A DNA stretch of 38,250 nt, from positions 1-38,250 of the forward strand of contig AYNO01000014.1 in assembly GCA_000500915.1 (NCBI GenBank). Direction: 5' to 3'. A model generated the notes under the pieces. That model was not told where the DNA came from. It searched no databases and saw only the letters and a program-made list of their open reading frames with translations. Of this stretch, positions 9,039 through 21,091 are shown piece after piece (positions within the stretch are counted from its first letter, which is position 1; each line of letters opens with the position of its first letter). A program made the position numbers and the translations under genes. The DNA is from Rhodobacter sp. CACIA14H1 (GTDB lineage: Bacteria > Pseudomonadota > Alphaproteobacteria > Rhodobacterales > Rhodobacteraceae).

Positions 9039-11075
9039 ATGTCCAACGACCCTCTGCTACAGCCCTATAAGCTGAAGCACCTCACGCTGCGCAACCGCAT
9101 CATGATCACCAGCCACGAGCCGGCCTATCCCGAGGACGGGATGCCCAAGGGGCGGTATCGGGCCTATCATGTCGAACGGGCGAAGGCCGGCGTGGCGCTT
9201 ACGATGACGGCGGGGTCGGCGGCGGTTTCCCGCGACAGCCCGCCGGTTTTCAACAACATCCTTGCCTGGAAGGACGAGGTTGTCGGCTGGATGAAGCAGA
9301 TGGTGGACGAGTGCCACGATCACGGCGCGGCGGTGATGATCCAGCTCACGCATCTGGGCCGCCGCACGCGGTGGGACAAGGGCGACTGGCTGCCGATCCT
9401 CGCCCCCAGCCATGAACGGGAAGCCGCGCACCGGGCCTTTCCAAAGCGGATCGAGGATTGGGATATCGCCCGCATCATCGGGGATTTCGCCGATGCGGCA
9501 GAGCGGATGAAGGCGGCAGGAGTCGACGGGATCGAGCTGGAAGCCTATGGCCATCTGATCGAACAGTTCTGGTCACCGCTGACGAACGATCTGGACAATG
9601 CGTATGGCGGCAGTCTCGACAACAGGCTGCGCTTCACCTTTGACGTCCTGCGCGCCATCCGCGACCGGTGCGGGCCAGAGTTCATCGTCGGATTGCGCTA
9701 TACGGCCGATCCCGCACAGGTGGGCGGGATGACCAAGGAGGAGGGGCTGGAGGTCAGCCGCAAACTGCGCGACAGCGGCATGGTGGATTTCCTGAACGTG
9801 ATCCGCGGGCATATCGACACGGACCCCGCCCTGACCGACCTGATACCGATACAGGGGATGAAAAGTGCGCCCCATCTCGATTTCGCGGGCGAGGTCCGGG
9901 CCGCGACGAATTTTCCGACCTTCCATGCCGCCCGGATCCCAGATGTCGCCACGGCGCGTCATGCCATCGCGTCCGGCAAGCTTGACATGGTGGGGATGAC
10001 GCGGGCGCACATGGCCGACCCGCATATCGTGCGCAAGATCATCGAGAAGCGCGAGGACGACATCCGGCCCTGTGTGGGGGCGAATTACTGCCTTGACCGT
10101 ATCTACCAGGGCGGGCTGGCCTTCTGCCTGCACAACCCCGCCACGGGGCGCGAGGAGACGATGCCGCATGTGATCCCTGCGGCATCCGAAAGGAAGCGCA
10201 TCACCATCGTCGGTGCAGGCCCTGCGGGGGTAGAGGCGGCGCGGGTCGCGGCCGAGCGCGGGCACGAGGTCACGGTCTTCGAAGCCGCCGATCAGGCGGG
10301 CGGCCAGATCCGGCTGACCGCGCAGGACGAACGGCGGCGCGAGATGATTTCCGTCATCGCGTGGCGGATGGCGCAATGCGAGAAGAAGGGGGTAACCTTC
10401 CACTTCAACACCTTTGCCGATGCCGAGACGGTTCTGGCGACGCAGCCGGACGAGATCATCATCGCGACCGGCGGCCTGCCGCATGTCGAAGTGCTGGCTG
10501 CCGGAAACGACCTTGTCCATTCGGCATGGGACATCCTGTCGGGCGATGTGAAGCCGGGATCGAACGTGCTGGTCTTCGACGATGCGGGGGACCATGCGGC
10601 GTTGCAGGCGGCTGACCTGATATCCGCAACGGGCGCGGCGGTCGAGATCGTGACGCCGGATCGCAGCTTCTCGCCCGAGGTGATGGCGATGAATCTGGTG
10701 CCCTACATGCGCAACCTGCAGAAGCGGAACACGACCTTCACCGTCACGTGGCGGCTGATGTCGGTGGCGCGGGAGGGGAACCAGTTGCGGGCCACGCTCG
10801 GCAGCGATTACGGGGATTTCACGCGCGAACGGCTGGTCGATCAGGTGATCGTCAACCATGGCACGCGGCCCCTGGACGCGCTTTACTTCGAGCTGAAGCC
10901 GAAATCGCGCAACCTTGGCGAGGTCGATTACGAGGCCTTGTCCACCGGTGGTTTGCAACAGGTCGTCCGCAACCCCGAGAGCCGTTTCCGCGTCTTCCGC
11001 ATCGGTGATGCGGTGGCGGCACGCAATACCCATGCGGCCATCTATGACGCGCTGCGGCTGGTAAAGGAGCTGTGA
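9039..11075 (+). CDS. TMADH/dimethylglycine-type NADH:flavin oxidoreductase (N-demethylase-like)
   Basis: 678 residues with an N-terminal old-yellow-enzyme FMN barrel (about 1-365), an iron-sulfur segment, and a C-terminal NAD/FAD module (GAGPAG at 392-397). This is the layout of trimethylamine dehydrogenase and of amine or betaine N-demethylases such as DgcA and stachydrine demethylase. Cluster positions read C345-VGA-NY-C351-x11-C363. The middle ligand, C348 in trimethylamine dehydrogenase, is alanine here. Start ATG 9039 has AGGAGG 7 bp upstream. It is controlled, by inference, by the divergent TetR. No electron-transfer flavoprotein gene is nearby. Substrate is probably an N-methylated compound. 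Confidence 0.85.
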   Translation: MSNDPLLQPYKLKHLTLRNRIMITSHEPAYPEDGMPKGRYRAYHVERAKAGVALTMTAGSAAVSRDSPPVFNNILAWKDEVVGWMKQMVDECHDHGAAVMIQLTHLGRRTRWDKGDWLPILAPSHEREAAHRAFPKRIEDWDIARIIGDFADAAERMKAAGVDGIELEAYGHLIEQFWSPLTNDLDNAYGGSLDNRLRFTFDVLRAIRDRCGPEFIVGLRYTADPAQVGGMTKEEGLEVSRKLRDSGMVDFLNVIRGHIDTDPALTDLIPIQGMKSAPHLDFAGEVRAATNFPTFHAARIPDVATARHAIASGKLDMVGMTRAHMADPHIVRKIIEKREDDIRPCVGANYCLDRIYQGGLAFCLHNPATGREETMPHVIPAASERKRITIVGAGPAGVEAARVAAERGHEVTVFEAADQAGGQIRLTAQDERRREMISVIAWRMAQCEKKGVTFHFNTFADAETVLATQPDEIIIATGGLPHVEVLAAGNDLVHSAWDILSGDVKPGSNVLVFDDAGDHAALQAADLISATGAAVEIVTPDRSFSPEVMAMNLVPYMRNLQKRNTTFTVTWRLMSVAREGNQLRATLGSDYGDFTRERLVDQVIVNHGTRPLDALYFELKPKSRNLGEVDYEALSTGGLQQVVRNPESRFRVFRIGDAVAARNTHAAIYDALRLVKEL

Positions 11076-11083
11076 AGCAGCGG

Positions 11084-11103
11084 CCCGCCCGTTGCGGGGC
11101 GGG
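11084..11103 (+). terminator. GC-rich hairpin after the flavoprotein gene
   Basis: CCCGCCC (11084-11090) and GGGCGGG (11097-11103) form a 7-bp stem, 8 bp after the stop codon. No T-run follows. Confidence 0.5.
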
Positions 11104-11218
11104 TCGGCAATGATACGGCAGACCGCCGGGCCTGTGCGCCTGTGCGGCAGCAGGCGCGTTTGCGCCGATGCTTCCGGCAGCCGCGCGGTGCGGCGCGGGT
11201 CACGAAAACGCGAGTGCT

Positions 11219-11245
11219 GTAACGTCCCCTGACCTTCCTGCGAAC
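11219..11245 (+). promoter_or_regulatory. SigF-type ECF promoter of the bufferin operon
   Basis: GTAACG (11219-11224), 16 bp, then CGAAC (11241-11245). This matches, with one change, the Caulobacter SigF promoter pattern GTAACC-N16-CGAA as I recall it. It lies 50 bp before the bufA start. The operon encodes a SigF-like sigma factor and NrsF-like anti-sigma factor, so positive autoregulation is expected. Confidence 0.75.
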
Positions 11246-11294
11246 TGAACCGTGAAGGGCGGCTGGCCCTTCCGGTTTTGACAGGGAGATTGAC

Positions 11295-11603
11295 ATGACT
11301 ACGATGACGTCCCGTTTCGTTCTCGGTGCATCCTTGGCCTGTGCGCTTGGCGCCATGGCCGTGACGCCGGTGATGGCCGAAGAGATGGAGAAGTGCTTCG
11401 GTGTGGCGCTGGCGGGGCAGAACGACTGTGCTGCCGGCCCCGGTACGACCTGTGCCGGTACGTCCAAGGTCGATTACCAGGGCAATGCATGGAAGCTGGT
11501 TCCGGCGGGCACCTGCCTGACCATGGAGCTTCCGGCTGCCGAGGATGGCATGGCGCGGAGCGGGTCGCTCGAGGCGCTGGAGCGGGATGTTCCCAAGGCC
11601 TGA
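11295..11603 (+). CDS. bufA: Bufferin precursor peptide BufA (DUF2282)
   Basis: 102 residues. Type I signal peptide with the predicted cut after VMA (residue 28). The mature peptide has four cysteines at 34, 45, 53 and 74 in [38 protein letters not shown], the DUF2282 signature. In Caulobacter such precursors are exported ribosomal peptides; some of their cysteines are converted to 5-thiooxazoles by BufB/BufC, and the product binds copper in the periplasm. It is the first gene of an eight-gene operon, with AGGGAG at 11283-11288 and a SigF-type promoter upstream. A strong stem-loop follows the stop and probably raises its dose over the enzymes. Metal specificity is inferred, not shown. Confidence 0.92.
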
Positions 11604-11609
11604 TCCAAG

Positions 11610-11634
11610 GGGTGCGCGGGTCTTCCGCGCACCC
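11610..11634 (+). terminator. Perfect 10-bp stem-loop between bufA and bufB
   Basis: GGGTGCGCGG (11610-11619) and CCGCGCACCC (11625-11634) pair perfectly around a 5-nt loop, followed by a T-rich GTTTCCATCTTTT. It lies between the precursor and the enzyme genes. It could partly terminate transcription or protect the bufA 3' end, giving many precursors per enzyme. Confidence 0.7.
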
Positions 11635-11657
11635 GTTTCCATCTTTTCGGACGCGCC

Positions 11658-12515
11658 ATGACCATAGCCCCGCTTCCCCCTCTGCCCGGTGTCGGCTTCA
11701 AGCCGGAACATTTTGCCGCGATCCGTGCCGATGCCGCCGGTATCGGGTTCTTCGAGGTCCACGCCGAAAACTATATGGGCGCGGGCGGCCTGCCCCATGC
11801 GCAGCTTGCCGCGATACGGGCGGATCACGCGCTGTCGATCCACGGGGTGGGACTGTCCATCGGCGGGGCGCGGGGGTTGGACCGTGACCATCTGGCGCGG
11901 CTGAGGCTGCTGTGCGACCGCTATGAACCGGAAAGCTTTTCCGAACATCTGGCCTGGTCCAGCCACGGGGCGGAGTATCTGAACGACCTGCTGCCGCTGC
12001 CCTACACCCCCGAGACGCTGCAACTGGTCTGCGACCATGTCGATCAGGTCCAGACGGCGCTGCGACGCCCGATGCTGCTGGAGAACCCCGCGACCTATCT
12101 GCGTTTCGCGCAATCCACGATACCGGAGACCGAATTCCTGACCGAAGTGGCGCGACGGACCGGCTGCGGGCTCCTTCTCGACGTGAACAACGTGTTCGTC
12201 TCCTGCACCAATGACGGCACGGACCCCCGCCTGTGGCTGGAAAGGCTGCCGCTGCATCTGGTCGGGGAAATCCATCTCGGCGGGCATGACGTGGAGGCGC
12301 TGCCCTCTGGTCCGCTGCTGATCGACAGCCACGGTGCGGCTGTGGCCGATCCTGTCTGGGCGCTCTTCGCCGCGGTTGTTGCGCGGGCAGGGCCGCTGCC
12401 GACACTGGTCGAATGGGACAATGACCTTCCCGAATGGTCCGTGCTGGCCGCCGAGGCCGCGCGGGCGGGGGAGATCCTTGCGGCGGGGAGGGCCGGCCTT
12501 GCCCGCGCATCCTGA
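11658..12515 (+). CDS. bufB: BufB, multinuclear iron-dependent oxidase (MNIO, DUF692)
   Basis: 285 residues with a TIM-barrel fold. It modifies precursor cysteines using a multi-iron site. The conserved ligand and active-site segments are visible in order: EVHAENYMG (H35, E37), [11 protein letters not shown] (H62), [34 protein letters not shown] and [10 protein letters not shown]. It belongs to the same enzyme family as MbnB (methanobactin) and TglH. It needs a partner protein to present the precursor, here BufC, whose start overlaps its end. Product and target cysteines are inferred from studied bufferin systems. Confidence 0.94.
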
Positions 12516-13248
12516 CTTCGTCGCCAGCTTCGGAACGGCCTTGCGGGGAGGCGACCTTCCGGCCGGACTTGTAGCCCGTCACCCGGACGAGGTCGGCCGC
12601 CGTTTCGCCGTCTATCGCAACAACGTGGCGGTCAGCCTGTCCGCAGCACTGGCGTCACGGTTTCCCGTGATCCGGCAACTGGTCGGCGAGGCGTTCTTTG
12701 CTGCTCTGGCCCGTCTCCATGCGGAACAGGACCGCCCGAAATCGCCGGTTCTGGCAGAATGGGGCGCGGGGTTTGCGGCCTTTCTCGAAGGCTTTCCGCC
12801 GCTGGAGGCCTATCCCTATCTGGGGGATGTCGCACGCATCGAATATGCACGCGGGCGGGCCTTCCATGCGGCCGATGTCCGCCCTGTCGATCCCCGTGCG
12901 CTGCGGTCCGCCGATCCCGAAAGGACGCGTCTGGTCCTGCATCCTTCGGTCACACTGCTGGAACTCGCACATCCCGCCGTATCGATCTGGGCACGCCACC
13001 AGCCGGGCGGGGCGGGCCTCCGGATTCCGGCGGGGCCTGAAACCGCGCTGATCCTGCGGGATGCCGCCTTTGCCGTGCCTGTCCGGCCGGTCAGTCGCGC
13101 CGAGACTGTCTTTCTGCGGGCCGTGCTGAAGGGCGAGCGGCTGTCGCAGGCGGTGGCTGCGGCGCAGATGGTCGAGGAAGGCTACGACCCGCAACCGGTG
13201 CTCGTGTCGCTGATGCAGGCGGGCGCGATCGTCGATGCCACGGAGTGA
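12499..13248 (+). CDS. bufC: BufC, MNIO partner protein (DUF2063)
   Basis: 249 residues. The N-terminal DUF2063 domain (about 5-100) carries the family's [38 protein letters not shown] segment. The C-terminal domain resembles the recognition domain that binds precursor peptides. No ATG is available in frame near the start. The TTG at 12499 has GGGGAGGG at 12485-12492 and gives a start just before the conserved domain, overlapping bufB by 17 bp. Such overlap suggests coupled translation of the two subunits, which are expected to act as a complex in the cytoplasm. Confidence 0.9.
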
Positions 13249-13254
13249 GGGACC

Positions 13255-13686
13255 ATGATTGCACGATTGAACCTGATGCTTGGCGCCATCCCTGACGCGC
13301 CGGTCGCGCTTTTCCTCCGGCTATTCCCGGCGCTTGTCTTCTGGCAGTCGGGGCGGACGAAGGTGGAGGGTTTCTCGATCAAGGACTCCACATGGTTCCT
13401 GTTCGAGCACGAATATGCCCTGCCGCTGGTCCCCTACGAGGCGGCGGCTGTGATGGCGACCGTGGCAGAGCATGTCCTGCCGGTGCTTCTGGTCCTTGGC
13501 CTGTTCACGCGGATCTCTGCGCTCGGCCTGCTGGGGATGACGGCGGTCATCCAGGCCTTCGTCTATCCCGATGCGTGGATGACCCATGGCCTCTGGGCTG
13601 CGGCTTTGCTGGCCGTGGTGTCGCGGGGGCCGGGGGACTGGTCTGTCGATCACCTTGCCGGGCTGGATCGCGGGGGGCGGGGCTAG
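13255..13686 (+). CDS. bufD: BufD, DoxX family membrane protein
   Basis: 143 residues with about four membrane helices and the DoxX-type features [21 protein letters not shown] and [24 protein letters not shown]. DoxX-like proteins accompany many bufferin and other MNIO operons as the fourth gene. Their task is not settled; a redox or export role has been proposed. It starts 6 bp after bufC, and its stop codon TAG directly abuts the ATG of the next gene, so it belongs to the same unit. Confidence 0.88.
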
Positions 13687-14397
13687 ATGGAGTTTGCCCT
13701 TGTCTATCTTGCGGGGCTTCTGACGCTGCTGAACCCCTGCGTCCTGCCCGTTCTGCCGATCGTGCTGGCCAGCAGTCTCCAGGCCGATCCGCGTGCACCG
13801 CTGGCCCTTGCGGCGGGGATGGCACTGTCCTTCGTCGCGGTGGGCGTGGCCGTGGCAGCAATCGGCCCCTCCTTGGGCATCTATCCCGAGGATGTGACGC
13901 GCTTCGCGGCGGTGGCGATGGCCGGTTTCGGGATGGTCCTCGTCCTGCCGGCCCTCGGACAGCGGTTCTCCATGGCAGCGGCCGGATTTGCTGCGGCCGC
14001 CGATGCCCGGATCCGGGCCGCGCCGCCCGGCGTCGGTGCCGGATTCGGCGGGGGTGCCCTGCTGGGTGCCGTCTGGAGTCCCTGCATCGGTCCGACCTTG
14101 GGCGCGGCCATCGCGCTTGCCAGTGCGGGACGGGACGTCGGTCACGCCGCGACGGTGATGGCGGCCTTCGCTGCGGGGGTGGCCACTCTGATCGTCGCGG
14201 CGGCCTATGTCCTGCGGGGGTGGCTGCGACGGAACATGGCACGGATGGTGGCCCTGTCGGACCGCGCCCGATCCATCATGGGCTGGGCCTTCATCGCCGT
14301 CGGCACGGCGCTGTTCCTTGGCCTGAACCATGTCATCGAAGGGCTGGCCCTGCGCTTCCTGCCTGTCTGGCTTGTCGATCTTTCCGTCAGCATCTGA
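13687..14397 (+). CDS. CcdA/DsbD-type thiol-disulfide transporter
   Basis: 236 residues with six hydrophobic segments. Two conserved cysteine motifs typical of CcdA proteins, NPCVLPVLP (C18) and WSPCIGPTLG (C133), form the membrane-embedded redox pair that passes electrons from cytoplasmic thioredoxin to periplasmic partners. It has no gap to bufD and is followed 11 bp later by an exported thioredoxin, its obvious acceptor. In this operon it probably keeps the bufferin cysteines or a copper-damaged protein reduced in the periplasm. That role is inferred from context. Confidence 0.88.
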   Translation: MEFALVYLAGLLTLLNPCVLPVLPIVLASSLQADPRAPLALAAGMALSFVAVGVAVAAIGPSLGIYPEDVTRFAAVAMAGFGMVLVLPALGQRFSMAAAGFAAAADARIRAAPPGVGAGFGGGALLGAVWSPCIGPTLGAAIALASAGRDVGHAATVMAAFAAGVATLIVAAAYVLRGWLRRNMARMVALSDRARSIMGWAFIAVGTALFLGLNHVIEGLALRFLPVWLVDLSVSI

Positions 14398-14408
14398 AGA
14401 GGTCACCG

Positions 14409-14816
14409 ATGAACCGCCGATCCCTGCTTGCCGCCTCTGCCGCCCTTCTGCTGGCGGGTCCGCTGCGTGCCGATGAGCGCTCCTTCTACACGCCCGGTCT
14501 GGCCGAGGCGGCAATGGAGTCCGGCGAGGTGGTGATCCTAGATTTCTGGGCCAGCTGGTGCAGCACATGCAGGGCACAGGAGCGGGTGATCGCCCGCCTC
14601 ATGGCTGAAAACGCGGACTATGGCCGCAAGATCCGCTTCATCGTCGTGGACTGGGACCAGCACGGCGACGGCGAATTGTCCCGGGCGCTGAAGATTCCGC
14701 GCCGGTCCACGCTTGTCGCGCTGAAGGGGCGGCAAGAGATCGGGCGGATCGTCGCCGGAACCGGTGCCGCCGAGATCAAGGCGCTTTTCGATGCGGCACT
14801 GGCGGCGGCGGGATGA
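14409..14816 (+). CDS. Exported thioredoxin-fold protein (WCSTC)
   Basis: 135 residues. Signal peptide (MNRRSLLAASAALLLAGPLRA), then a thioredoxin domain with DFWASWCSTCRAQE; active-site cysteines C51 and C54. IRFIVVDWD and a cis-proline segment (KIPRRSTLVALKG) follow, as in DsbD gamma-like domains. The order CcdA then thioredoxin rebuilds the two parts of DsbD as separate proteins. It probably receives electrons from the upstream CcdA and reduces a periplasmic substrate, plausibly the BufA peptide. Stop overlaps the sigma factor start (ATGA). Confidence 0.88.
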   Translation: MNRRSLLAASAALLLAGPLRADERSFYTPGLAEAAMESGEVVILDFWASWCSTCRAQERVIARLMAENADYGRKIRFIVVDWDQHGDGELSRALKIPRRSTLVALKGRQEIGRIVAGTGAAEIKALFDAALAAAG

Positions 14817-15445
14817 CTGCGGCATTTGCCCTTTCACCGAGGCGTGACTGTGCCGGGCGCGGCGGCTCGGTTAGGATGGCGCTGTCGGGGGTGGAGGCGC
14901 GGTTGCAGCAGGACGAGGTCTGGGAGGTGCTGCTGGCCCGCGCCAATGACGGGGACGGGGCCGCATTCGCCCGCTTCCTTCATGCCGTGACGCCGACGCT
15001 GCGCGGCGTGATCCGTCGGCGGGGCGGGGCCTTGCCTGCCGACCAGCACGAGGATGTCCTTCAGGAGGTGCTGCTGGCGATCCATCTGAAACGCCACACC
15101 TGGCGTCAGGATACGCCGGTCAGGCCGTGGCTCTATGCCTTGGCCCGCTACAAGGTCGTGGATGCCTTCCGACGGCGCGGGGCGTCGGTTAATCTGCCCA
15201 TCGAGGATTTTGCCGACATTCTGCCCGAAGAGAATGGTGGCGCCCCGATGTCCGGACGGGATGCCGAGGTGATGCTGGCCATGATCGACACGCGGTCTGC
15301 CATGCTGGTCAGGGCGGTGGCGCTGGACGGCAAGACCGCCGAGGAAGCGGGCGAAACGGTGGGGCTCACTGCCGGTGCCGCCCGGGTCGCGCTGCACAGG
15401 GCGATGCGGCGGCTATCGGGCCTGGCCGAGAGGATGATGAAATGA
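14813..15445 (+). CDS. sigF: ECF sigma factor, SigF-like
   Basis: 210 residues from ATG 14813, which overlaps the previous stop. An internal ATG at 14876 gives 189 residues starting MALSGVEARL and may be the true start, since the extra 21 residues look unlike sigma factors. Region 2 is seen in DQHEDVLQEVLLAIHLKRHTW and PWLYALARYKVVDAFRRR, region 4 in KTAEEAGETVGLTAGAARVALHRAMRRL. The following gene encodes the NrsF/DUF1109 anti-sigma factor that pairs with Caulobacter SigF. It is expected to drive the GTAACG-N16-CGAAC promoter before bufA and so its own operon. Confidence 0.88.
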   Translation: MTAAFALSPRRDCAGRGGSVRMALSGVEARLQQDEVWEVLLARANDGDGAAFARFLHAVTPTLRGVIRRRGGALPADQHEDVLQEVLLAIHLKRHTWRQDTPVRPWLYALARYKVVDAFRRRGASVNLPIEDFADILPEENGGAPMSGRDAEVMLAMIDTRSAMLVRAVALDGKTAEEAGETVGLTAGAARVALHRAMRRLSGLAERMMK

Positions 15446-16080
15446 CGGACAGACGCAGCACGGAAGACCTGATCCGCGATATGGCGTCCTTCCCCCCGCC
15501 TGCCCGGTTCGACGCCGCTGCGGCGCTGGGGGGAATGGCGGTTCTGATGCTGGCAGGGCTGGGCCTGTACTTTGCGGGCTTCGGTTTGCGGGCCGATCTG
15601 GTTTCTGCCTGGAACCATCTGCCGGTGCAGGCCAAGACAGTCCTGCCGGTCCTGCTGTCGGGGTCGGCCCTCTGGATTGCGCTGCAATCGGCGCGGCCCG
15701 GGGGGCGGCTGGTCCTTTGGCCCATTGCGGTTCCGGTCCTGCTGGCCCTTGCGATGGTGCTTCAACGCTTTGCCATTGCCGAAGGCGACCTGCTTGCCGA
15801 GGCCATGGGCCGGACGGCGCTTGCCTGTCTGGGCTCCATCGCCCTGATCTCGGCGCTTCCGCTTGCCGCCGGCATCCATTTCTTCCGCCGGACGGCGCCG
15901 ACACGCCCGGTCCTGACGGGTGCCTTGCTGGGTCTTGGGGTCGGGGCGGGTGTCGCGGCGGGGTATGCCCTGCATTGCAGCGAGGATTCGCCGCTTTTCT
16001 TCGTGGCGTGGTACGGGCTGGCGATCACCGGCGTCGCGGGGGCGGGTGCTTGGCTGGGGCATCGCTACCTGCGTTGGTGA
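15442..16080 (+). CDS. nrsF: NrsF-type membrane anti-sigma factor (DUF1109)
   Basis: 212 residues with a short cytoplasmic N-terminus (STEDLIRDMASFPPP) and six membrane helices, the layout of DUF1109 proteins. Caulobacter NrsF holds SigF at the inner membrane and releases it on heavy-metal or oxidative stress, depending on two conserved cysteines (131 and 181). Here the only two cysteines are C129 (TALACLG) and C179 (ALHCSED), nearly the same positions. Start overlaps the sigma stop (ATGA). It is the last gene of the operon and should act as its metal or redox sensor. Confidence 0.92.
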   Translation: MTDRRSTEDLIRDMASFPPPARFDAAAALGGMAVLMLAGLGLYFAGFGLRADLVSAWNHLPVQAKTVLPVLLSGSALWIALQSARPGGRLVLWPIAVPVLLALAMVLQRFAIAEGDLLAEAMGRTALACLGSIALISALPLAAGIHFFRRTAPTRPVLTGALLGLGVGAGVAAGYALHCSEDSPLFFVAWYGLAITGVAGAGAWLGHRYLRW

Positions 16081-16119
16081 AACCACGGCCTGCGCGGATG
16101 CGGCCTGTGCAGCGGCGGA

Positions 16120-16728
16120 TCAATGTCCGCCGAGGATCGAGGCACTGACCTGCATGAGGAAGGCCCATTCGTCCTGCAGTTCGAATTTCCCTTTGGTCTT
16201 CCGGTCGATCGTCAGGAAGGAATGCCCGTGGACGAAGGTCCAGAGCGCGTAGGCCCTGATCCTGACGATCGGATCATCGGGGGATCTTTCCAGAACGGCC
16301 GCCACGGCACGCAGCACCACCCCGAAACAGGCAGCGCCCTTTCCTTCCAGATGCGGGTCCCCGTCGTGCCCTTCGGTCAGACCGAAGACGAGGCGGAAGA
16401 CGCCCGGACCCGCGCGGGCGAAATCGACATAGGCCTGTCCGATCGCCGCGACGGATTCATAGGAACCTGCCCTGTGCCGTGCGGCTGCGGTCTCCATCGC
16501 GTCGCGTAGCCGGTCCATCCCCGCGCTTGCCACGGCCCGCAGGAGTTCGGGGCGGTCCTTGAAATGCTTGTACGGCGCGGCGGAACTCACTCCGGCGCGG
16601 CGCGCGGCCTCGGCGACGGAAAAACCGTCCGGGCCGTGGGTTTCCACCAGTTCCGCCACGGCGGCGATCAACTGCGCACGCAGATCGCCGTGGTGATAGC
16701 TGCTGCGCGGGGTGGTCCGTTCCGGCAT
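16120..16728 (-). CDS. TetR family regulator of the RND efflux genes
   Basis: 202 residues from ATG 16728 (in-frame starts at 16764 and 16797 lie in the intergenic side and add non-family sequence). HTH at about 15-60: SVAEAARRAGVSSAAPYKHFKDRPELLRAV. The C-terminal domain contains WTFVHGHSFL, resembling the WHG-type TetR effector domain. Divergent from the membrane-fusion and RND pump genes; two related operator-like sequences lie in the spacer. It convergently faces the end of the bufferin operon. Confidence 0.9.
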   Translation of the reverse strand: MPERTTPRSSYHHGDLRAQLIAAVAELVETHGPDGFSVAEAARRAGVSSAAPYKHFKDRPELLRAVASAGMDRLRDAMETAAARHRAGSYESVAAIGQAYVDFARAGPGVFRLVFGLTEGHDGDPHLEGKGAACFGVVLRAVAAVLERSPDDPIVRIRAYALWTFVHGHSFLTIDRKTKGKFELQDEWAFLMQVSASILGGH

Positions 16729-16796
16729 CGGTCGTTCCAAGGAGTGCTGCGGCACGTCGGGCATAAGGGGGCAATCGGCGGGCGGATGCAATGGCA

Positions 16797-16846
16797 CTTG
16801 CCAAGTAAGTGATCCTTACATAAGTTAGCGACACTTACTTTGCAAG
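16797..16846. promoter_or_regulatory. Tandem TetR operators between regulator and RND pump
   Basis: Outer arms CTTGCCAAGTAAGTG (16797-16811) and CACTTACTTTGCAAG (16832-16846) are inverted with one mismatch. Each half also holds its own inverted repeat: GTAAG-TGATC-CTTAC on the left and TAAGT-N7-ACTTA on the right. This suggests two adjacent dimer sites covering both divergent promoters. Confidence 0.75.
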
Positions 16847-16863
16847 AATCATATGGGGTCGCC

Positions 16864-17988
16864 ATGGCGCGTATCTGGGGACGGCGGGTTTGGGCCATCG
16901 TGGCGCTGGGGGTGCTTCCCCTTGGTGCCTTTGCGGTGGCGAGTGCGGTGTTGCTGCCCGGCGCGGGCGACGCTTCCGCCCCGGCGGAGCGTCTGCCCCA
17001 GCCGGTACGGGTTACCGCCATCTCCTTCGGGTCCGCAGAGCGGATCGCCACCTATACGGGCACGATCCGCCCGCGCCACGAGGTGGCGATGGGTTTCCGC
17101 GTCCCGGGAAAGATCGTCTCGCGCGAGGTCGATATCGGCGACCCGGTCCTGCGGGGGCAGGTTCTTGCACGGCTCGATGACACGGATGCGCGGTTGCAGG
17201 AGGAGCTTGCCGCTGCCGAGGACGAGGCGGCCCGTGTCGATCACCGGCGTGCTTTGGCAGAGGTCGAGCGGAGCAGAAAGCTCTTCGGCGAAGGCCACAT
17301 CGCGCAAGCCGCCCTAGACCGCGCGGTGAGCGGCGAAGCGGAAGCCGCGTCGCGGGCCGAAAGGGCGGGGCGTGCGCTTGCGCTGGCGCGGAACGCTCTG
17401 GCCTATACTCGGCTTGTCGCGGATGCGGACGGCGTCGTGACATCGGCACCGGGCGAGGTGGGGCAGGTCGTCGCGGCCGGAACGCCCGTGATATCCGTGG
17501 CGCGGTCGGGTGCCTTGGATGTCGTCTTCGCCCTGCCCGAAACGGACCGCACCCTGCTGCAGGGTGCGGCCGCACGCGGTGCGATCTGGGATGACAGCCG
17601 GACGGACTTTCCGCTGAGCCTGCGCGACATCTCGCCCGACGTCGATCCGGCCGGGCGGACCTACAAGGTCCGGATGGCTATGGATGCCGCCGTTGCGGGC
17701 GCCGATCTGGGGCGGACGGTCACCGTGACCGTTGCGAAGGCCGCGGGAGCGCCGGTCGCAACCGTGCCGCTGGCTGCTGTCATCGACGACGGGGCAGGGC
17801 CGGGCGTCTGGCGCGTCACGGGCAACAGGGTCGATCGCGTGCCGGTCGAGATCGTTTCCGCTTCGGGCCAGACGGCGGCGATCCGCGGGGCCCTGGCCGA
17901 GGGGGAGTTGGTCGTCAGTCTCGGTGCCCACAAGGTCGATCCGGCGCGTCCGGTGCGGGTCGTCGAACACCGTTCGGCAGGAGAGTGA
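16864..17988 (+). CDS. RND efflux periplasmic adaptor (membrane fusion protein, HlyD/AcrA family)
   Basis: 374 residues. N-terminal membrane anchor or signal (about 8-32), then a lipoyl-like half (TGTIRPRHEVAMGFRVPGKIVSREVDIGDPVLRGQVLARLDDTD), a helical hairpin (about 110-170), the second lipoyl half (ALAYTRLVADADGVVTSAPGEVGQVVAAG), and beta-barrel and membrane-proximal domains. It links the inner-membrane RND pump to an outer-membrane channel, which is not encoded here. Start ATG 16864 is preferred over the upstream TTG at 16840, which lies in the operator. The pump gene follows 4 bp later. Confidence 0.93.
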   Translation: MARIWGRRVWAIVALGVLPLGAFAVASAVLLPGAGDASAPAERLPQPVRVTAISFGSAERIATYTGTIRPRHEVAMGFRVPGKIVSREVDIGDPVLRGQVLARLDDTDARLQEELAAAEDEAARVDHRRALAEVERSRKLFGEGHIAQAALDRAVSGEAEAASRAERAGRALALARNALAYTRLVADADGVVTSAPGEVGQVVAAGTPVISVARSGALDVVFALPETDRTLLQGAAARGAIWDDSRTDFPLSLRDISPDVDPAGRTYKVRMAMDAAVAGADLGRTVTVTVAKAAGAPVATVPLAAVIDDGAGPGVWRVTGNRVDRVPVEIVSASGQTAAIRGALAEGELVVSLGAHKVDPARPVRVVEHRSAGE

Positions 17989-17992
17989 CCGG

Positions 17993-20900
17993 ATGCGCAA
18001 TCTGAACCTCTCGCTCCTGTCGGTCACCAATCCGGCAGTCACGCTTTTCGCCATCCTCGTCGCCTTGGCTGCAGGGGCCATGGCCTATGTGAACCTCGGT
18101 CGCGCCGAGGACCCGACGTTCACGATCAAGACGATGGTCGTCACGGCGGTCTGGCCGGGCGCGACGGCGGAAGAGATCCAGAACCTCGTGGCAGAGCCGA
18201 TGGAGAAGCGGATCCAGGAACTTCCCGAACTGGACCATATCCGGACCTTTTCGCGCCCCGGGGCGGCCGTGCTGCAGGTGCAGCTGAAGGACTCGGTCCG
18301 CGAGGCGCAACCCGTCTGGTATCAGGTCCGCAAGAGACTGGGCGACCTGCGTCCCACATTGCCGCAGGGTGTGATCGGCCCCTTCTTCAACGACGAGTAC
18401 GGCGACGTGTTCTCGGCCATTTACATGGTGACGGGCGAGGGGCTCGGGCGCGCGGAGCTCAGGTCCTATGCCGAGCGGTTGCGGACACGGCTTCTTGCGG
18501 TCGAGGATGCGGCCAAGGTCGCGTTGATCGGCGAGGTGGAGCAGCGGGTCTGGGTGGAAATCAGCCATCGTCGACTGGCGACGCTCGGGATCGTGCCGCA
18601 GACCATCTTCGATGCCATCGGCCGGCAGAATGCCATCACGGGGGCGGGGGCGATCCAGACAGTGGCAGACGAGGTGCAGGTGCGCGTGACGGGCGGTCTG
18701 GACAGTCTGGACGCCTTGCGCGACCTGCCGGTTCCGGCCGGCGGAACGGTGATCCGGCTGGGCGACATCGCCGAGGTGAAGCGGGGCTACGAGGAACCGC
18801 CCGGCTATCTGGCCTTTTTCGAAGGGCAGCCGGCCGTGGGTGTGGGCGTCGCGATGGCCGACGGGGCGAATGTCGTCGCACTGGGCGGGCGACTGGAGAC
18901 CGAGGTTGCGGCATTCCGCGCCGACCTGCCGCTTGGCGTGGAGGTGACGCAGGTGTCGGATCAGGCGGACATCGTGACCCATGCCTTCGACGAGTTCATC
19001 AAGACCTTCATCGAGGCGCTGGTCATCGTCCTTGTCGTGTCCTTCGTCACGCTGGGCTGGCGGACTGGGATTGTCGTGGCCCTGTCCGTGCCGATCGTTC
19101 TGGCGGTCATGTTTGTCGTGATGCAGGCTTTGGGAATGAATTTCGATCGGATCACGCTGGGCGCTCTGATCATCGCTCTGGGGCTGCTGGTCGATGATGC
19201 CATCATCGCGGTGGAGATGATGGTGGTGAAGATCGAGCAGGGCTATGACCGCATCGCGGCGGCCTCGGCCGCGTGGTCCTCGACGGCTTTCCCCATGCTG
19301 ACCGGCACCTTGGTGACCGCTGCGGGCTTCCTGCCCGTGGGGCTGGCGAAATCGACGAGTGGCGAATATGCGGGCAACATCTTCTGGGTGGTCGGCATCG
19401 CGTTCGTCGTGTCGTGGTTCGTGGCGGTGATCGTGACGCCCTATCTGGGCCTGAAACTTCTGCCCCAACCGAAACCCGGCAGGCGGCACGGATATGACGG
19501 CCGCCTCTACCGTGCTTTGCGCGTGGGCGTGACGGCATCGCTGCGGGCCCGTTGGTGGGTGATCGGGGCAACCGTCGCCGCCCTTCTGGCGACCGGCGTC
19601 GGTATGGGTTTCGTGCAGCAGCAGTTCTTCCCCACCTCGGCCCGCGCGGAACTGTTCATCGAGACACGGATGCCCGAAGGGTCTTCCATAGATGCGACCA
19701 CCCGGGCGGCGCTGGCTGCCGAGGCAATCGTCAAGGGCGACCCGGACGTGCGTTTCAGTTCCACCTATGTCGGCGCCGGTGCGCCGCGATTCTTCTTTGC
19801 CTTGAACCCGGCGCTGCCGAATCCTTCGTTCGCGCTGACCGTGATCATGGCGACGGACTCTGCCGCACGGGATCGCCTGAGGGCCAGGATCGAGGCGGCG
19901 GTTGCGGCAGGTGCGGTGCCGCAAGCGCGGATACGGGTCGATCAGATCGTCTTCGGTCCGCCGGTCGGTTTTCCGGTGCAGTTCCGCGTGATCGGCCCTG
20001 ACCCGGCAGAGGTCAGGCGGATCGCAACCGATGTGCGGGCCGCCATGGTTGCCAACCCGAATACGGTGGAACCGCAGTTCGACTGGAACGAACAGGCGAA
20101 GACGCTGGATGTCCGGCTGGATCAGGACCGCATCCGTGCGCTGGGGCTGAACACGGCGGACGTCTCGAACACGCTGCAGACGCTGTTGTCCGGCGTGAAG
20201 GTCAGCGAGTTCCGCGAGGGGACGGACCTGATCGACATCGTCGTCCGCGCCCCGCAGGAGGAGCGTGCCGATCCCTCGCGACTGTCCGACCTGACGATCC
20301 TGCTGCCGAACGGGGCGGCGGTGCCGCTGTCGCAGCTTGCCAGGGTGTCCTACGGATTCGAAGAGCCGATCCTGTGGCGCCGCAACAGGGACATGGTCCT
20401 GACCGTCCGCGCCGATGTCGTGCCGGGCATCCAGGCGCCGACGGTGACGGCGCAATTGCTGCCTGCACTGCAACCCGTCATCGATGCCTTGCCGGCCGGA
20501 TACCGGATCGAGATGGGCGGGGCGGTCGAGGAAAGCGCCAAGGCCAACGCGGCCCTGTTCAAGGTGTTTCCGCTGATGTTCCTTGTCATGCTGTCGCTGC
20601 TGATGCTGCAGTTGCGAAGCTTTCCGAAGCTGTTCCTCGTCTTCCTGACGGCCCCGCTGGGCGCCATCGGGGCGGTGGCGGCGCTTCTGGCTTTTGATGC
20701 GCCCTTCGGCTTCGTCGCTTTGCTGGGCGTGATCGCCCTGGCGGGAATGATCATGCGGAACACCGTCATCCTTGTGGACCAGATCGACCATGATCTGGCA
20801 GCAGGTGCGACGCCATGGGATGCCATCGTCGAAAGCACGGTGCGTCGCGCACGACCTGTCGTCCTGACGGCAATGGCGGCAATCCTGGCGATGATCCCGC

Positions 20901-21091
20901 TCGTGCGGTCGGTTTTCTGGGGGCCGATGGCCATGGCCATCATGGGCGGGCTGATCGTCGCGACGGTGCTGACGCTTTTCTTCCTGCCGGCGCTCTATGC
21001 GGCGTGGTTCCGTGTCCGGCAGGACAGCCCGCCCGACAGGGTGTCCGCCACACCCGCACCCGTCCCGGCGCTGCGCCTTGCAGGTGAATGA
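17993..21091 (+). CDS. RND efflux transporter permease (AcrB/MexK-like)
   Basis: 1032 residues, the full length for the hydrophobe/amphiphile efflux family, with 12 membrane helices and two large periplasmic loops. The start motif AEDPTFTIKTMVVTAVWPGATAEEIQNLVAEPMEK is conserved. The proton-relay aspartates are visible in GLLVDDAIIAVEMMV (about 400). It forms a proton-driven drug exporter with the upstream adaptor. AGGAG at 17979-17983 supports ATG 17993. Substrate unknown. A hairpin GGCAGGGC / GCCCTGCC follows at 21122-21143. Confidence 0.95.
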   Translation: MRNLNLSLLSVTNPAVTLFAILVALAAGAMAYVNLGRAEDPTFTIKTMVVTAVWPGATAEEIQNLVAEPMEKRIQELPELDHIRTFSRPGAAVLQVQLKDSVREAQPVWYQVRKRLGDLRPTLPQGVIGPFFNDEYGDVFSAIYMVTGEGLGRAELRSYAERLRTRLLAVEDAAKVALIGEVEQRVWVEISHRRLATLGIVPQTIFDAIGRQNAITGAGAIQTVADEVQVRVTGGLDSLDALRDLPVPAGGTVIRLGDIAEVKRGYEEPPGYLAFFEGQPAVGVGVAMADGANVVALGGRLETEVAAFRADLPLGVEVTQVSDQADIVTHAFDEFIKTFIEALVIVLVVSFVTLGWRTGIVVALSVPIVLAVMFVVMQALGMNFDRITLGALIIALGLLVDDAIIAVEMMVVKIEQGYDRIAAASAAWSSTAFPMLTGTLVTAAGFLPVGLAKSTSGEYAGNIFWVVGIAFVVSWFVAVIVTPYLGLKLLPQPKPGRRHGYDGRLYRALRVGVTASLRARWWVIGATVAALLATGVGMGFVQQQFFPTSARAELFIETRMPEGSSIDATTRAALAAEAIVKGDPDVRFSSTYVGAGAPRFFFALNPALPNPSFALTVIMATDSAARDRLRARIEAAVAAGAVPQARIRVDQIVFGPPVGFPVQFRVIGPDPAEVRRIATDVRAAMVANPNTVEPQFDWNEQAKTLDVRLDQDRIRALGLNTADVSNTLQTLLSGVKVSEFREGTDLIDIVVRAPQEERADPSRLSDLTILLPNGAAVPLSQLARVSYGFEEPILWRRNRDMVLTVRADVVPGIQAPTVTAQLLPALQPVIDALPAGYRIEMGGAVEESAKANAALFKVFPLMFLVMLSLLMLQLRSFPKLFLVFLTAPLGAIGAVAALLAFDAPFGFVALLGVIALAGMIMRNTVILVDQIDHDLAAGATPWDAIVESTVRRARPVVLTAMAAILAMIPLVRSVFWGPMAMAIMGGLIVATVLTLFFLPALYAAWFRVRQDSPPDRVSATPAPVPALRLAGE

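Follow-up and report, generated by a model that had tools for sequence, protein, structure and literature searches.

The window analysed here is the whole 38,250-nucleotide stretch of Rhodobacter sp. CACIA14H1 (GenBank assembly GCA_000500915.1, contig AYNO01000014.1, positions 1 to 38,250 of the forward strand). It holds a bufferin operon in which the genes for a CcdA-like membrane protein and an exported thioredoxin-like protein (the ccdA-trx pair) stand between the bufferin genes and the genes for the extracytoplasmic function (ECF) sigma factor SigF and its anti-sigma factor NrsF. We read the eight genes as one SigF-autoregulated metal-stress operon whose CcdA-Trx arm serves the SigF response, with NrsF as its likeliest single target, and we give this reading a little less than an even chance. 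Judged by gene neighbourhoods, the association of CcdA-Trx pairs with SigF/NrsF reaches further than their association with bufferin.

A bufferin operon with a sigma and anti-sigma factor is by itself not new: genes for a sigma factor and NrsF are already recorded for Buf1 clusters in a survey of 2025 (PMC12452194), and the Caulobacter regulators adjoin their bufferin genes. The first-pass annotation had placed the latter apart, which is wrong, as sigF-nrsF (CC3253-CC3252) and the bufferin operon (CC3254-CC3257) are numbered consecutively (PMC3511200, excerpts). The new part is the ccdA-trx pair inside such an operon. The redox arm of some bufferin operons goes unmentioned in the main text of the published survey, in which thioredoxin, DsbD and CcdA do not occur (PMC12452194), and in the open-licence full-text literature we recognised no description of a link between bufferin or SigF and ccdA-trx.

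Eight genes behind one SigF-type box

The operon lies on contig C14 of the genome labelled G000 (3.87 Mb in 236 contigs, 88% complete; G and L numbers are genome and locus labels throughout). Sequence and Pfam matches give the + strand order bufA-bufB-bufC-doxX-ccdA-trx-sigF-nrsF, with genes spanning 11295-16080. The first-pass annotation had proposed this set in this order, and it is borne out, each gene scoring above the Pfam curated cut-off:

11219..11244, + strand: the window's sole SigF-type box, GTAACG-N16-CGAA, 50 bases upstream of the bufA ATG
11295..11603, + strand: bufA, Buf1 (DUF2282) bufferin precursor, 102 aa (amino acids); PF10048, 90.5 bits
11658..12515, + strand: bufB, MNIO bufferin maturase, 285 aa; PF05114, 342.9 bits
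12499..13248, + strand: bufC, DUF2063 partner protein, 249 aa; PF09836, 80.3 bits (longer frame), cut-off 27.2
13255..13686, + strand: doxX (bufD), 143 aa; PF07681, 62.7 bits, cut-off 23.6
13687..14397, + strand: ccdA, CcdA-like membrane thiol-electron carrier, 236 aa; PF02683, 36.9 bits, cut-off 27.1
14409..14816, + strand: trx, exported thioredoxin-like protein, 135 aa, CSTC active site; PF00085, 34.3 bits, cut-off 23.5
14876..15445, + strand: sigF, ECF sigma factor, 189 aa; sigma region 2, PF04542, 32.3 bits
15442..16080, + strand: nrsF, DUF1109 membrane anti-sigma factor, 212 aa; PF06532, 137 bits; Cys129 and Cys179

From bufA to nrsF the intergenic gaps are 54 bases, an overlap, 6, 0, 11 and 59 bases and a 4-base overlap; bufC probably starts at a TTG overlapping bufB, and the 59-base gap between trx and sigF becomes an overlap if an alternative in-frame ATG at 14813 is the sigF start. 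BufB meets the NCBIfam equivalog NF050167, 'MNIO family bufferin maturase' (374 bits, cut-off 310). The other proteins tried against equivalogs score below them: BufC against HvfC (53 of 142 bits), DoxX against HvfX (56 of 80 bits), SigF just under NF009165 (185 bits, cut-off 198) and NrsF outside NF042994, 'anti-sigma-F factor NrsF' (58.5 bits, cut-off 300), a narrow equivalog to which it is related. The mature part of BufA, behind a signal peptide judged by eye, has four cysteines in the contexts K-C, D-C, T-C and T-C. Both the single MNIO match and the single NrsF match of this 88% complete genome lie at the operon.

The window's box differs at one base from the Caulobacter SigF consensus, GTAACC-N16-CGAA (PMC3511200, excerpts). 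Genome-wide, the bare pattern is not enriched (9 matches versus 8 for a reversed control), and its significance comes from a conserved position before bufA across loci, not from its frequency. Of 51 bufA loci, 37 have a strict box no more than 200 bases upstream of the gene; among the 14 without one are three eight-gene loci with GTAAT in place of GTAAC at the corresponding position. A sigF gene divergent from bufA or ccdA has a box of its own in 30 of 31 loci (the exception being L275). No box precedes sigF in any of the 17 colinear loci, namely 12 with eight genes, 4 with six and G154, in which only a wider query set brought out a sigF-like match; nor was one found before ccdA in the 11 eight-gene loci checked. 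Because all 12 eight-gene loci lack a sigF box, sigF-nrsF would depend on the bufA promoter. The NrsF sensor, sigma factor, bufferin and thiol reductase should then rise and fall together, and the earlier idea of one self-contained unit gains support from this box pattern. A consensus scan of 11050-16200 found one sigma-70-like match, overlapping the bufA start at 11278-11305 (0.3 expected), and four terminator-like sites (3.6 in shuffles).

Right behind the operon, at 16120-21091 of the window, a TetR-family gene is divergent from HlyD-type and AcrB-type efflux genes; we saw no link between these and the operon.

The ccdA-trx pair, its ties to SigF and its movement

As a two-gene unit the pair is old and family-wide: trx follows ccdA by 9-59 bases in 117 of 120 loci (122 CcdA matches minus G065 and a decayed copy in G299), and it mostly does not adjoin bufB. 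The window's CcdA has one cysteine each in NPCVLP and SPCIGP; these residues, Cys18 and Cys133, are invariant in seven aligned eight-gene CcdAs, and the ccdA frame is open in all 12 eight-gene loci. Trx has a signal sequence by eye and an AlphaFold2 model (pLDDT 87.7) with a thioredoxin fold, whose nearest solved structure is the thioredoxin-like 5zf2 (E 9e-8). The cis-proline is absent, Ser100 standing in its place, and 5zf2 likewise has Ser in this column. Among 116 family members the column holds Ser in 113, Gly in 2 and Ala in 1; a TrxA-like control protein of G297 has Pro.

In the CcdA tree, from which G022 (partial), G247 (long) and G271 (stop) were left out, the bufferin-linked proteins fall in a clade of 21 of the 117 rows (99/99, with bootstrap values that had not settled), and the CcdAs of colinear and divergent Rhodobacterales arrangements lie in one wider clade. 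A SigF-type box precedes ccdA in 6 of the 14 clade rows outside the eight-gene operon, two of them (G301, G310) with a CGT-type box in low-complexity sequence, versus 2 of 96 rows outside the clade; these counts and their Fisher value of 3e-5 ignore kinship, which inflates the counts. A de novo search for dyads in the regions upstream of ccdA brought out no clear motif except GWAACG-N15/16-CGTA in 9 of 113 regions. This ECF-like box stands before the stand-alone pair in eight aligned members of the window's genus (for example L149, L150 and L146) and in G040, and perhaps belongs to a sister sigma factor.

The pair recurs beside sigF-nrsF in other gene orders. Named genomes were scanned by CcdA alignment, keeping the best 80 of 558 loci, and in nine of these 80 ccdA-trx is divergent from sigF-nrsF (in one, L268, the sigF match is partial), with a box before ccdA in eight of the nine. 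Among 20 CcdA loci fetched from other alphaproteobacterial families, three, with the gene order reversed (trx-ccdA), have sigF-nrsF within a few kb. G370 (L353) carries trx-ccdA-sigF-nrsF in a row, boxed before trx, with no buf genes in the stretch; in G397 (L349) trx-ccdA is divergent from sigF-nrsF with a box before trx; and in G315 trx-ccdA and sigF-nrsF stand beside a bufferin cluster. A Sphingomonas plasmid (L343) has trx-ccdA divergent from sigF-nrsF, a box before trx and no bufferin gene in the stretch. In G370, G397 and L343 CcdA is 37-45% identical. Over these 20 loci and two plasmid loci, a GTAACC-type box precedes 6 of 22 pairs versus 0.36 by base shuffling; three of the six (L351, L355, L361) have no sigF in the wider stretch. 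L357, one of the 20 fetched loci, has a weak sigF match and no nrsF. In G247 (L366 7404-9241) a SelR/MsrB gene and a CcdA (DsbD_TM)-redoxin fusion, boxed, are divergent from sigF-nrsF. Pairs beside the SigF switch in other bacteria suggest service to the switch or its stress response rather than to the peptide. The arrangement seems to have been assembled more than once, as ccdA-trx in Rhodobacterales, as trx-ccdA in other alphaproteobacterial families and as MsrB plus a CcdA-redoxin fusion in G247.

Three further observations concern neighbours of such pairs. DUF3179 genes recur beside SigF- or bufferin-linked ccdA-trx (L138 5584-6549, L137 845-2227, L264 5116-5997). G315 has a VKOR-family gene after doxX in its bufferin cluster (L363 4117-4575). 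On the Burkholderia glumae plasmid p79s4p (L342 4555-6544), trx-ccdA is followed by an ECF sigma factor and a zf-HC2 anti-sigma factor next to arsenosugar genes, with no SigF-type box; CcdA matches 47 Burkholderia plasmid records.

A comparison of gene orders recovered the eight-gene order in 12 loci, distributed over the window's genus, other Rhodobacter-like genera and Paracoccus, with one on a plasmid. In a family sample of 295 genomes, about one per genus, BufB occurs in 210 and CcdA in 108, and bufB adjoins ccdA in four among the matches listed: G000, G274, G275 and G216 (sigF and nrsF incomplete at a contig end). A check from the ccdA side added one further case, a distant MNIO gene (PF05114, 134 bits) directly before ccdA-trx in G213 (L365 8619-11315); in that stretch, which forms a second link between an MNIO protein and a thiol reductase, we found no SigF box and no other bufferin gene. 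The 19 genomes of the window's genus hold three more eight-gene loci (G295, G307, G308). Seven of the best 80 of 558 named-genome loci have the order, three of them apparently G274, G295 and G216 again; those new from named genomes are a Gemmobacter nectariphilus metagenome-assembled genome (MAG), a Tabrizicola MAG, Paracoccus gahaiensis and P. saliphilus. The complete set also lies on a P. liaowanqingii plasmid, where doxX and ccdA share one frame. There (L337 7521-8687) the shared frame arises through a frame change at the doxX end that may be a sequencing error, and we rejected a DoxX-CcdA fusion as functional evidence. A class sample of 289 genomes gave BufB matches in 108 and CcdA matches in 43, the two lying at most 5 kb apart in G000 and G315 among the matches listed. 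Plasmids of P. aestuarii, P. marcusii and Paracoccus sp. Arc7-R13 (sigF annotated in two pieces) have the six-gene form bufABCD-sigF-nrsF.

The unit moves between genera. The rpoB tree unites the window's genus in one clade (97/98) and places G275 next to G205 (99/99). DNA identities of rpoB to G000 are 92.0% (G295), 91.6% (G297) and 90.2% (G104) within the genus, the lowest being 86.6% (G296), and 86.9% (G274), 86.9% (G216) and 85.5% (G275) outside it; G307 gave no rpoB match, and G308 and G299 gave an incomplete one. BufB protein identity to G000 is 87% in G274, 86% in G275, 85-87% in G295, G307, G308 and G299, and 69%, 71% and 68% in the same-genus G104, G298 and G302. CcdA and BufB trees both place G274 and G275 inside the group of G000, G295 and G307. 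A comparison of the flanks of 14 colinear loci, 12 of them with eight genes and 2 with six, showed little in common: it gave four cross-locus matches, none involving the window, and the sole strong one (82%) is between P. gahaiensis and P. liaowanqingii. It is the conflict between the rpoB and operon trees, together with the differing flanks, that points to movement; with the plasmid copy, these support the transferable unit that the first-pass annotation had envisaged. In G275 a phage-integrase-family gene (PF00589; L072 11174-11857) lies about 0.2 kb upstream of bufA.

All 12 eight-gene loci have CcdAs that belong to a single clade (100/99), and ccdA-trx was therefore probably captured once. 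In the SigF tree (two of 32 SigFs left out) and the BufB tree, the six-gene forms of P. aestuarii and G026 fall within the eight-gene group, which suggests that ccdA-trx was lost again after capture. G299 retains a decayed ccdA remnant behind bufABCD, after doxX (L136 13211-13657); a second contig of this genome (L137) has an intact ccdA-trx divergent from sigF-nrsF.

What the CcdA-Trx arm may act on

The Caulobacter SigF regulon responds to chromate, cadmium and copper (PMC3511200, excerpts; PMC8224329). Replacing either conserved cysteine of Caulobacter NrsF derepresses SigF, and both are probably periplasmic (PMC3511200, excerpts). In an alignment of 25 NrsF proteins, Cys129 is present in all 25 and Cys179 in 22; the three without it (G370, G397, G315) have a cysteine near position 110 instead, so a cysteine pair is kept. 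As these cysteines are needed and probably periplasmic, a periplasmic reductase made under SigF could reset NrsF.

By what is known of the families, BufB and BufC would turn the central cysteines of BufA into thiooxazoles that bind copper, and CcdA would relay electrons through the membrane, from thioredoxin in the cytoplasm to the exported Trx. We propose that the CcdA-Trx arm is part of the stress response under SigF and not of the pathway that matures bufferin. Trx would reduce periplasmic disulphides and metal-oxidised thiols, and by acting on the NrsF cysteine pair it may reset the anti-sigma factor and turn the response off once stress has passed. The full homeostatic loop is more doubtful: metal or thiol stress would alter the NrsF cysteines and free SigF, bufferin as the copper buffer and CcdA-fed Trx would be made, NrsF would be re-reduced and the unit would travel between genera as one piece.

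Several points weigh against a role of the arm in the SigF response. Caulobacter SigF-dependent genes are not induced by agents that generate reactive oxygen, and single Cys-to-Ser mutants of NrsF remain inducible (PMC3511200, excerpts), so NrsF may sense metal binding and not a disulphide. Neither thioredoxin nor CcdA appears in the Caulobacter SigF regulon tables excerpted from PMC3511200 and PMC8224329, so NrsF can function in the absence of such a pair. Most pairs outside the CcdA clade lack a SigF box (2 of 96 rows boxed), as do most named-genome loci without sigF or buf genes (box in 4 of 63, within the best 80 of 558) and 16 of the 22 other-family and plasmid pairs. Counts are inflated by kinship, and the box is short and is judged by position and conservation. 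The nested six-gene loci and the decayed ccdA of G299 show operons that have dropped the pair, and in two loci, G300a and L264, ccdA-trx lies behind bufABCD and a DUF3179 gene with no sigF in the stretch, which leaves a role at BufA some probability.

General periplasmic thiol repair, including the feeding of Msr-type enzymes, is a somewhat unlikely alternative to a dedicated NrsF reset; here the pair would be under SigF only because copper oxidises thiols, and NrsF would not be special. In Caulobacter the MsrPQ system, which repairs methionine sulfoxide, is already under SigF control (PMC8224329), cytochrome b and molybdopterin oxidoreductase genes lie behind trx-ccdA on the Sphingomonas plasmid, and SelR/MsrB stands in front of the CcdA-redoxin fusion in G247. 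Most family pairs also stand alone, and the boxed L351, L355 and L361 lack a nearby sigF. However, general repair leaves unexplained why the pair is sited directly with sigF-nrsF in several arrangements, including the four-gene row of L353.

The first-pass annotation had the pair keep the BufA cysteines reduced for metal binding, and a variant would have it shuffle or open the BufA disulphide for copper binding or release. Both have the shared operon of 12 loci in their favour, together with the arrangement in G300a and L264, the VKOR gene after doxX in G315 and the MNIO gene directly before ccdA-trx in G213. However, Buf1 has its two middle cysteines modified and its outer two joined in a disulphide (PMC12452194), which leaves no free thiol to guard. 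A special BufA in pair-bearing operons was sought and rejected, as 23 BufAs have the same four mature cysteines with or without the pair, and in L343 and L353 trx-ccdA accompanies sigF-nrsF with no bufferin gene in the stretch. The claim is hence not supported, and we regard BufA as an improbable client.

A metal-carrying Trx, in which a CxxC without cis-proline would bind copper and CcdA would keep the site reduced, is also improbable, and slightly more so. A cis-proline may prevent metal binding to CxxC (PMC2757866, excerpts, citing a 2007 paper), and Ser fills this column in nearly the whole family. That same breadth argues against it, as Ser is a trait of the ccdA-trx family as a whole and not just of the bufferin-linked pairs, and the closest solved fold is that of a thioredoxin-like protein. 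That a stand-alone pair landed by chance between doxX and sigF and was carried along would fit the single capture, the later losses and the decayed copy, but with ccdA open in all 12 loci and the association recurring with SigF boxes in other gene orders and families, we consider a mere passenger highly implausible.

A thiol-reductase pair set under SigF and beside sigF-nrsF in several gene orders and families would be a concrete candidate for the off-switch of the SigF response, and one that can be deleted. Because the eight-gene unit is compact, autoregulated and mobile, it could be transplanted into a laboratory strain and dissected gene by gene.

Comparison with known systems

The nearest relative is Caulobacter CC3252-CC3257, which like the window has bufABC-doxX under SigF, an NrsF with two conserved cysteines and a near-identical box (PMC3511200, excerpts; PMC8224329). 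In Caulobacter, however, sigF-nrsF has its own SigF-dependent promoter and the excerpted regulon tables show no thiol-reductase pair, whereas the window has one promoter and ccdA-trx inside the operon. Buf1 clusters (DUF2282/MNIO/DUF2063/DoxX, with or without sigma factor and NrsF) share all core genes and regulators with the window (PMC12452194).

The stand-alone ccdA-trx of Rhodobacteraceae consists of the same two genes but is located elsewhere and mostly unboxed, and the bufferin-linked pairs form a clade of their own. SoxV-SoxW likewise combines a CcdA-like protein with a periplasmic thioredoxin. We rejected a SoxVW identity for the present pair: SoxY occurs in 11 of 15 genomes but not beside ccdA, and G000, G274, G275 and G013 have no SoxY match. 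ScsB-ScsC links periplasmic thiol reduction to copper tolerance; unlike that system, CcdA here is a 236-residue protein of transmembrane part only, and Trx has 135 residues and no cis-proline.

The homeostatic loop, if real, would mirror at the membrane and in the periplasm the SigR-RsrA-thioredoxin loop of Streptomyces, in which a thiol-based anti-sigma factor holds a sigma factor that drives the thioredoxin system (PMC3961337, excerpts). Streptomyces RsrA is cytoplasmic and binds zinc, whereas NrsF is a membrane protein whose cysteines are probably periplasmic, and the thioredoxin that accompanies it bears a signal sequence and would be fed by CcdA.

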